A stretch of 64,000 nucleotides of DNA from Acidobacteriaceae bacterium. Lineage in GTDB: Bacteria > Acidobacteriota > Terriglobia > Terriglobales > Acidobacteriaceae. The notes beneath the pieces are model-generated. The model did no database searches. It had not been told where the DNA came from and worked only from the letters and a program-made list of their open reading frames with translations. The position numbers and the translations under genes were made by a program. The stretch covers positions 1-64,000 of the forward strand of contig JASHOQ010000127.1 in the NCBI GenBank assembly GCA_030041045.1, given 5' to 3'. Shown in pieces: positions 23,545-56,346 of the stretch; position 1 is the stretch's first letter, and each line of letters begins with the position of its first letter.

Positions 23545-23704
23545 GAGGAGCGGGGAGCGACCGGCGTACTCCGTTAGTATGGCATAGTTCACTTAATTAT
23601 GGTTAATAACAAATAATTATTGTCGATTATGGAGGTCTCCGGAACGGGAATTCACTGACTAAGTAGTTGACGCATATCGATTAACATGAAGTCCCCAGGC
23701 TACG

Positions 23705-23858
23705 GCATTTTCTGAGTTACTGTGTCCTCTTCGTTCCTTCGCAAGGTCGCCGCTCCCTGTTGGTCCCACCCCAGCAAGCGAGGAGCGCTTGCCGGGGCCC
23801 CGGGTTGGTCGCGTCGACTCCGCTTTCCGTCTTCGGGATATAGCTACTCAGAAAACGC
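23705..23858 (+). mobile_element. 109-bp TIR element, copy A, interrupted by a 45-bp insertion
   Basis: TIRs GCATTTTCTGAGTTACTGTGTCC / revcomp of GGATATAGCTACTCAGAAAACGC; internal insertion with 7-bp direct repeat GTTGGTC at 23759-23765 and 23804-23810. Confidence 0.8.
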
Positions 23859-29996: not shown

Positions 29997-30239
29997 GTTG
30001 CTCCTGTGTGCGCGGGCCTGCGTCTGACCTATTCATTTCGGCAAACGAATTTTCTTCCGCCGTCCCTCCGGGACTTCGCTCCGATTGTGTGACTCAGTCT
30101 CCCCACGCTAAAGCGCGGGGCTAACAAGCGCTGCGCCTCCGGCGCGACGGTCATTTATCCTGAGGTTCATTGCGGCACGACCAACGTCATGCCCGGATAC
30201 GGAACTATCCACGGCGCCGGATTGGACGAGGCAACCAAC

Positions 30240-31735: not shown

Positions 31736-31804
31736 CGAGCCTCCGGCGCGTGGAGTGGTAGAAGGAAGAAGGATAACGCAAAAGACGCGGGTCAGCGAGT
31801 TACG

Positions 31805-31913
31805 GCATTTTCTGAGTTACTGTGTCCTCTTCGTTCCTTCGCAAGGTCGCCGCTCCCTGTTGGTCGCGTCGACTCTGCTTTCCGTCTTCGGGATATAGCT
31901 ACTCAGAAAATGC
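31805..31913 (+). mobile_element. 109-bp TIR element, copy B
   Basis: GCATTTTCTGAGTTACTGTGTCC ... GGATATAGCTACTCAGAAAATGC; 2 differences by eye from copy A outside its insertion. Confidence 0.85.
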
Positions 31914-31919
31914 TTTACG

Positions 31920-32028
31920 GCATTTTCTGAGTTACTGTGTCCTTTTCACTGCCTCGTAAGATCGCCGCTCCCTGTTGGTCGCGTCGACTCAGCTGTCCGT
32001 CTGCGGGATACAGCTACTCAGAAAATGC
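31920..32028 (+). mobile_element. 109-bp TIR element, copy C (head-to-tail with copy B)
   Basis: Same TIRs and length; about 11 differences by eye from copy B. Confidence 0.85.
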
Positions 32029-38668: not shown

Positions 38669-38904
38669 TCGCTGTCGACCGGCGGAAGCCCTGAGCGGCG
38701 AAAGGGCCTGGCTGGGGTTCCCTCACCCCTCCGGGGCTGGAAATTCTTTCCTGGGTTTTTCCCAGGACTTCGTCCTGGGCTATTCTCCTTCATCCCTCCG
38801 GGATGACTTAACTGGCGTCGGCGCCTTTTCTCTAGATGTCCAAGAGTCCGTGCATACGCCCAGCACTGCTCTTCGGGTGCTTCAGTGCCTTTAGCTCCAG
38901 TTCC

Positions 38905-55783: not shown

Positions 55784-56210
55784 GATGCGCGCGATCAAAG
55801 CCTTAACCGCACTTGCAGTTCTTATATTCATTGGCAATGCGGTCCTCTTTTACTCAGTTGCCACCAGAGGCTATGGCCGCACCATCGATGCCCTCACTCC
55901 AGTCTTCGGATCTTACGATTCTTTAGTGCTCGCGCTTATCGCGGTGGCCAGCCTTATGTCCATCCCCGTCACCGCGCTCTTCGGCATCATCGGCATCGTC
56001 TTGGCAAAACGGTTTGGCCGCTCCGCGCTGGCGCTGGGATTGCTCTGTTGTGTCCTGAGCGCCGGCATATTCGTGCTCTGGAAGGAATATAGCGGGGCTC
56101 CCGGCCCTACGGCACCGAGCGGGCCGGCTCCGGTCACTCGTCAAGCAACGCCGAATCCTCCATCCCGCCGTGCGGGCGACCCCAGTCTCGACCGGCGTCG
56201 GAATCAATGA
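55784..56210 (+). CDS. small hypothetical membrane protein
   Basis: MRAIKALTALAVLIFIGNAVLFYSV... with 3 hydrophobic segments. Confidence 0.55.
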
Positions 56211-56346
56211 AGCGGGTGCCCCAAGCCGGGGTCCCCACGACCGGGGTCCCCAAGAAGCGACCTTTGCTCCTTGGGGGTGGACAGAAAGGTCTTCGTCCGT
56301 GGGGTGGAGATCCCTCGCCTTTGGGGACCGGGGAACGCACCGATCC

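Follow-up and report, generated by a model that had tools for sequence, protein, structure and literature searches.

A family of mini-hairpins in Acidobacteriota that is probably mobile and inserts with short target duplications

The DNA analyzed here, a stretch of 64,000 nucleotides called the window in the following, belongs to an Acidobacteriaceae genome assembly of 5.23 Mb in 142 contigs. It contains three copies of a host element, all on the plus strand. Copy A (positions 23701-23858) is a long form of 158 bp with terminal inverted repeats and carries a hairpin of 38 bp, CCACCCC-AGCAAGCGAGGAGCGCTTGCC-GGGGCCCCGG, at 23766-23803 (full sequence: CCACCCCAGCAAGCGAGGAGCGCTTGCCGGGGCCCCGG). This hairpin is bordered on the left (23759-23765) and on the right (23804-23810) by the 7-bp target repeat GTTGGTC, also on the plus strand. 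Copies B (31801-31913) and C (31916-32028) are arranged head to tail and represent the short, empty form. Because both contain a single GTTGGTC (at 31859 and 31974, respectively) that is directly followed by GCGTCGACTC, they differ from copy A by exactly 45 bp. The initial annotation had reported 45 extra bases in copy A, with GTTGGTC on both sides of the insert in A and only once in B and C; these statements, including the coordinates and the 7-bp repeat, proved to be correct. The 17-mer GTTGGTCGCGTCGACTC was found three times in the window (0.03 expected). The insert of copy A folds into a CCCC-stem-GGGG structure, and the empty form of the host element folds on itself as well (z = -7.3). 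In its three copies (23701-23858, 31801-31913, 31916-32028), the host element looks like an inverted-repeat element flanked by TA, with the ends cTACGGCATTTTCTGAG..CTCAGAAAATGCTTTAg. It is often found between complementary flanks, e.g. tggggctt/agcccctga, and its core is conserved, while the outer stem sequence varies between species.

In the genome of the window, the hairpin pattern was matched 16 times and a reversed control pattern not at all, so the hairpin in copy A cannot be attributed to chance. The loop reads GAGGAG in 11 of these copies and GAGAAG in 5. All 16 exact copies reside at the identical site of the host element, and no exact hairpin was found in this genome as a lone copy off the host element; the hairpin subtype therefore spread together with its host. 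When up to three mismatches were allowed, four additional copies were recovered, each of them in a diverged relative of the host core and again at this position. The 158-bp long form of the host element is represented by 16 copies, and the 113-bp short form by about 40 among those listed. For the host element tree, reverse-strand readings of the palindromic element had also been entered, and the forward half alone was used; long and short forms were intermixed, and few branches were supported. Outer sequences were identical between long and short forms, which did not fall into separate groups, and wider flanking sequence was partly common to one filled and two empty copies. In this genome, the hairpin was thus gained on one or very few occasions, and was then amplified, converted or precisely lost with the host element. 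Hence, the 16 copies represent one insertion that was amplified with its host, or spread by conversion, and not 16 hops. As the outer sequences are common to both forms, some of the short copies may have arisen later, by precise loss of the hairpin across the 7-bp repeat.

The hairpin is one example of a family of the form CCACCCC-N(16-28)-GGGGACCCCGG, in which N is a variable, self-complementary stem; the units are 34-44 bp long, with a mode of 38. The pattern occurred in 53 of 60 congeneric genomes, with up to 65 copies per genome, and its reversed version was not matched in any of them. Genomes with no copy of the family include G008, G026, G029, G070 and G072. Within the genus, the same kind of hairpin occupies hundreds of unrelated sites. 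In a sample of the phylum, the pattern was present in 48 of 396 genomes, among them genomes of other families with different stems and units of 35 bp, compared to one match of the reversed control. Most records with the family are titled Acidobacteriaceae or other Acidobacteriota, many of them from peat and soil, and many of the sampled genomes are MAGs. Because copies were sampled by a search pattern that set the termini CCACCCC and GGGGACCCCGG, the near-constancy of the termini is partly a matter of construction; the stem was not fixed in this way. In the stem, 94.8% of the cells were paired, double changes were observed 57 times versus 18.6 in shuffles, and the pairing was destroyed when the partner was shifted by one column. 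Matches were also noticed outside Acidobacteriota, including Clostridia and Thermus; several are perfect hairpins and others look like chance. The same termini together with perfect stems occur at four loci of a Defluviitaleaceae MAG, and further hairpins of this kind were seen in Alphaproteobacteria (two loci) and Oscillospiraceae (two loci). The Defluviitaleaceae copies have the CCAAAACCGGG loop in common with copies from Acidobacteriaceae. Whether horizontal transfer, convergence or contamination underlies these hairpins is not resolved.

Flanking direct repeats were quantified for 140 independent copies. An exact repeat of at least 4 bp was present at 22 of them, whereas 1.25 were expected and no more than 6 were obtained in any of 1000 permutations, in which left and right flanks were re-paired at random; in all cases, the repeat had to touch both ends of the hairpin. 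The excess was observed in both classes of copies, i.e. for 10 of 50 in plausible reading frames and for 12 of the other 90. Among these repeats 4 bp was the most common length, and 7 bp, as in copy A, was also seen. Most copies lack an exact 4-bp repeat, and the duplication is therefore short, variable or eroded in the majority. The total insertion length, for which hairpin and repeat were added up, has its maxima at 42 and 45 bp. In tandem arrays, the order repeat-hairpin-repeat-hairpin-repeat with the same 4-bp spacer (GCTC, TGCT or CCTT) is often seen, as would be expected if slippage had multiplied a unit flanked by a duplication. Direct repeats at other copies, for which the initial annotation had proposed a test, were seen in the family elsewhere; the exact subtype is confined to one host site in the genome of the window.

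Movement was inferred from comparisons of filled and empty sites, which were made between species and not between strains. The host core GGTCGCCGCTCCCTGTTGGTCGCGTCGACT is empty, with 30 bp, in many copies and species. In some copies it is filled after GTTGGTC (75 bp), and in others at a second position, after CTCCCT (71 or 74 bp). Within a filled copy, the target letters on the two sides tend to agree, also where one species has other letters than the next: the pairs GTTGGTC/GTTGGTC, GCTGGTC/GCTGGTC and GATGCTC/GATGGTC were found at the first position, and TCT/TCT and CCT/CCT at the other. An ABC-transporter gene provides the clearest example of an empty site. In one genome, G004, it reads caggTGCT-[hairpin]-TGCTgaaaggc, an insertion of exactly 42 bp that consists of the hairpin and the TGCT duplicate. 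In total, 27 orthologues align through this junction without a hairpin, and the nearest of them is 93% identical to G004 over 300 bp. A second genome, G078, contains a decayed hairpin at the same codon, which reads LHPTNQKPSAGIPV. Because this decayed copy exists and the nearest sampled relative of G004 is empty, either the hairpin was precisely lost or insertion was repeated at one target, i.e. a hot spot.

These comparisons bear on a first alternative, namely that the host element originally contained the hairpin and that copies of the B and C type arose by precise deletion between the 7-bp repeats, with nothing inserted at this locus. It would fit to the finding that all 16 genome copies share one site, which is also the one filled in the diverged relatives from this genome; moreover, outer sequences that are identical, and in part the wider flanks as well, exist with and without the hairpin, so switching between the two forms does occur. 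However, related cores of other species are empty, at 30 bp, or filled at the second position with a different repeat, and the same family is present in unrelated genes that have empty orthologues. Deletion alone cannot explain these cores and orthologues. For the window locus, where the initial annotation had named it as a possible refutation of insertion, it is improbable, and as a general account it is refuted; some short copies may have lost the hairpin later. The claim that a hairpin of about 38 bp had been inserted with a target-site duplication, and that its family is mobile, was supported at the level of the family by the unrelated sites, the excess of flanking repeats over permuted flanks, the empty orthologous sites and the two fill positions.

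Many copies lie inside protein-coding genes. Reading frames with a coding-like base composition were found for 70 of 173 copies; the criterion is rough, and some of the 70 are surely not genes. Many of the in-frame copies are located in housekeeping genes such as gltX, valS, nadA, ddl and trpD. Ten candidates were compared with NCBIfam, and they include anthranilate phosphoribosyltransferase (with three tandem hairpins), D-alanine-D-alanine ligase, apolipoprotein N-acyltransferase, branched-chain aminotransferase, NadA, GltX, RlmN and pyruvate dehydrogenase E1 alpha. Comparison with solved structures revealed a gap of 14 residues exactly at the hairpin for GltX, and an insertion at the hairpin for ValS, where the gap comprises 20 residues including neighbouring ones. 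A length of 2 modulo 3, for which a 4-bp duplication restores the frame, was found for 31 of 33 curated coding copies versus 98 of 140 others (P = 0.003), with the coding set chosen by eye. All six frames are open in 83% of the distinct hairpins versus 28-39% of shuffled ones, and this holds outside genes too. Because the net insertions peak at 42 and 45 bp and the units are usually open in six frames, copies can persist in frame within protein genes. The coding copies use all six frames and give rise to recurrent peptides such as HPTDEDLSAGTP. In another genome (G017), the conserved YIHRNPVKRGL motif of two paralogous Y1 transposase genes is interrupted by the hairpin at an identical point; either the insertion was copied with the gene, or the site was hit repeatedly.

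The sequence to the left of the insertion is pyrimidine-rich, T was found at position -1 in 68 of 140 copies, and G was favoured at position +5 in 73 of 140. Because random genomic positions are mostly coding, re-pairing of left and right flanks served as the control for folding of the joined flanks. The flanks of intergenic-like copies were complementary, with a mean of -12.6 kcal/mol versus -10.4 kcal/mol after re-pairing, and none of 5000 permutations was as low; for coding-like copies, complementarity was not significant (P = 0.10). Between genes, copies are preferentially located in the centre of other inverted repeats, and examples of target loops are those of the hairpins CCCAGGTCC..GGACCTGGG, GGTGGCTTTT..AAAAGCCAC and GGCACGACT..AGTCGTGCC. 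Some family copies are nested within other members of the family. Among them is the second family member of the window, a 40-bp unit with the usual GGGGACCCCGG end at 56241-56280 (minus strand). The region 56205-56300 (minus strand) has a Russian-doll arrangement, in which this unit lies inside a family copy that is itself inside a CCCAAG..CTTGGGGCACC repeat hairpin. The only reportable Rfam match in the window is an Acido-Lenti-1 RNA (RF01687) at 38761-38805 (plus strand, 40.7 bits); a second copy at 30101-30146 (plus strand, 33.1 bits) does not reach the gathering score of 37. In relatives, a similar CCCCACGCT..AGCGCGGGGCTAAC hairpin serves as a target of the mobile hairpin (two loci).

According to a second alternative, the hairpin is a REP of the GTAG/CGTC kind and owes its movement to a Y1 (RAYT) transposase. 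In size and hairpin form it agrees with REPs, and the genome of the window contains ten Y1 genes, several of which are flanked by their own hairpin repeats. However, the GTAG or CGTC foot is absent and the ends are CCAC and CCGG instead, and in this genome all ten Y1 genes lack the hairpin within 1.5 kb. It was present at only 2 of 40 Y1 loci, both of them in one relative, where it interrupts the transposase frame. In addition, target duplications are present, which are not expected from single-strand transposition by Y1 enzymes (IS200/IS605). Mobilization of the hairpin by Y1/RAYT is therefore unlikely, and its identity as such a REP very doubtful. Four of the Y1 (RAYT-like) genes of this genome (L246, L248, L250 and L251) are bordered by their own hairpin repeats, and such repeats, e.g. 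CCCAGGTCTC..GAGACCTGGG, CCCCGTTCATCGCG.. and CCGTCCAAGCT..GCTTGGGCGGGG, often serve as sites into which the mobile hairpin inserts.

It is very improbable that the hairpin is a structured RNA element or terminator under selection and not mobile DNA. The conserved stem pairing with compensatory changes would be in accordance with a function at the RNA level, but copies occur in both orientations relative to genes and, inside coding sequences, in all six frames; they are found inside one another as well as inside other hairpins, they have flanking target repeats, and neither the hairpin nor the host element matched the curated covariance models of Rfam. Local template switching or slippage that makes palindromes, or the spread of a selected coding peptide as in PARCELs, can hardly be upheld either: slippage best explains the tandem arrays of 42-bp units and the recurrent peptides would suit peptide selection, but local template switching cannot explain why unrelated loci have termini and loop in common, the coding peptide appears in all six frames, and PARCELs are tandem repeats of 25 residues (PMC2996958).

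Taken together, the insert of copy A is most probably (at a probability of roughly 0.8) a member of a family of mobile, non-autonomous mini-hairpins that has spread through Acidobacteriota and inserts with a short target duplication. A length of 4 bp is the most frequent for the duplication, while 3 or 7 bp occur in some cases. The hairpin would be one of the smallest mobile DNA elements reported. With regard to the mechanism, which is inferred and for which no enzyme was found, we propose that an enzyme supplied in trans might recognize the folded hairpin. It would cut the target with a stagger, mostly of 4 nt, in single-stranded or cruciform DNA, often the loop of an extruded hairpin, and filling or repair of the stagger would then yield the target duplication. 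In the window, a single insertion is presumed to have entered the GTTGGTC target of the host element, which then would have multiplied with the hairpin on board; recombination between the flanking 7-bp repeats may later have removed it from some of the host copies.

A broader reading remains tentative, and we would give it slightly less than an even chance. It holds that, throughout the phylum, self-contained hairpins of about 38 bp, perhaps the smallest known bacterial mobile DNA, enter hairpin loops and genes through the action of an enzyme that has not been described; because length plus duplication usually amount to whole codons and all six frames are open, insertion would be tolerated by proteins and would still be adding segments of 14 residues to essential enzymes. 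To our knowledge, mobile palindromes inside proteins have mainly been found in Rickettsia and a few other genera, with lengths of about 100 bp or more, and their movement is unsolved. The present unit is small, abundant and well marked, with recurrent ends, a 4-bp duplication and clean empty sites in dozens of relatives, so that the minimal requirements, the target choice and the enzyme are directly testable in culturable Acidobacteria. It also offers a natural experiment, in which the same short insertion is present in many essential enzymes in six possible frames.

A description of this hairpin family was not found in the full-text literature, a search that did not cover subscription papers. 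Several known systems are related in form. The PARCEL is a motif of 25 residues encoded by palindromic DNA, in tandem tracts in particular ORFs (PMC2996958). The hairpin is likewise a DNA palindrome that doubles as coding sequence and in some cases forms tandem arrays; however, its units are dispersed singly in unrelated genes and in any frame. REPs of the GTAG/CGTC type are GC-rich palindromes of 20-40 bp that occur in high copy number and are often clustered (PMC3733652). In contrast to these RAYT/REPtron repeats, the hairpin has neither a GTAG/CGTC foot nor an association with Y1 genes, duplicates its target, and inserts into other REPs and genes. With MITEs it has in common that it is non-autonomous, has inverted repeats and duplicates its target, but it is far smaller, and the whole element is one hairpin. 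Among the Y1 loci, the only transposase family searched, there was no candidate for a parental autonomous transposon with matching ends. The RPEs of Rickettsia are short palindromes that are found between genes and in frame within conserved protein genes, where they encode a tolerated peptide (PMC2229807, PMC10969869). They are 105-146 bp long, and their target duplication is unresolved in the table of a review (PMC2229807). The hairpin likewise inserts in frame in unrelated conserved protein genes, but is only about 38 bp long, has a duplication of mostly 4 bp, and belongs to another phylum; it is said to differ in sequence, although RPE sequences were not compared. The Yersinia element YPAL/RU-2 comprises about 168 bp, generates duplications of 3-26 bp at targets that span or adjoin dyad symmetry, and is known from filled and empty sites (PMC2229807). 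A variable target duplication and targets at dyad symmetry are found for the hairpin, too, whereas its size of about 38 bp and its duplications of mostly 3-7 bp are different; it has been called unrelated in sequence without a comparison having been made. In spite of having about a quarter of the size of RPE and YPAL, the hairpin, as judged by analogy, probably works like these palindromic elements.
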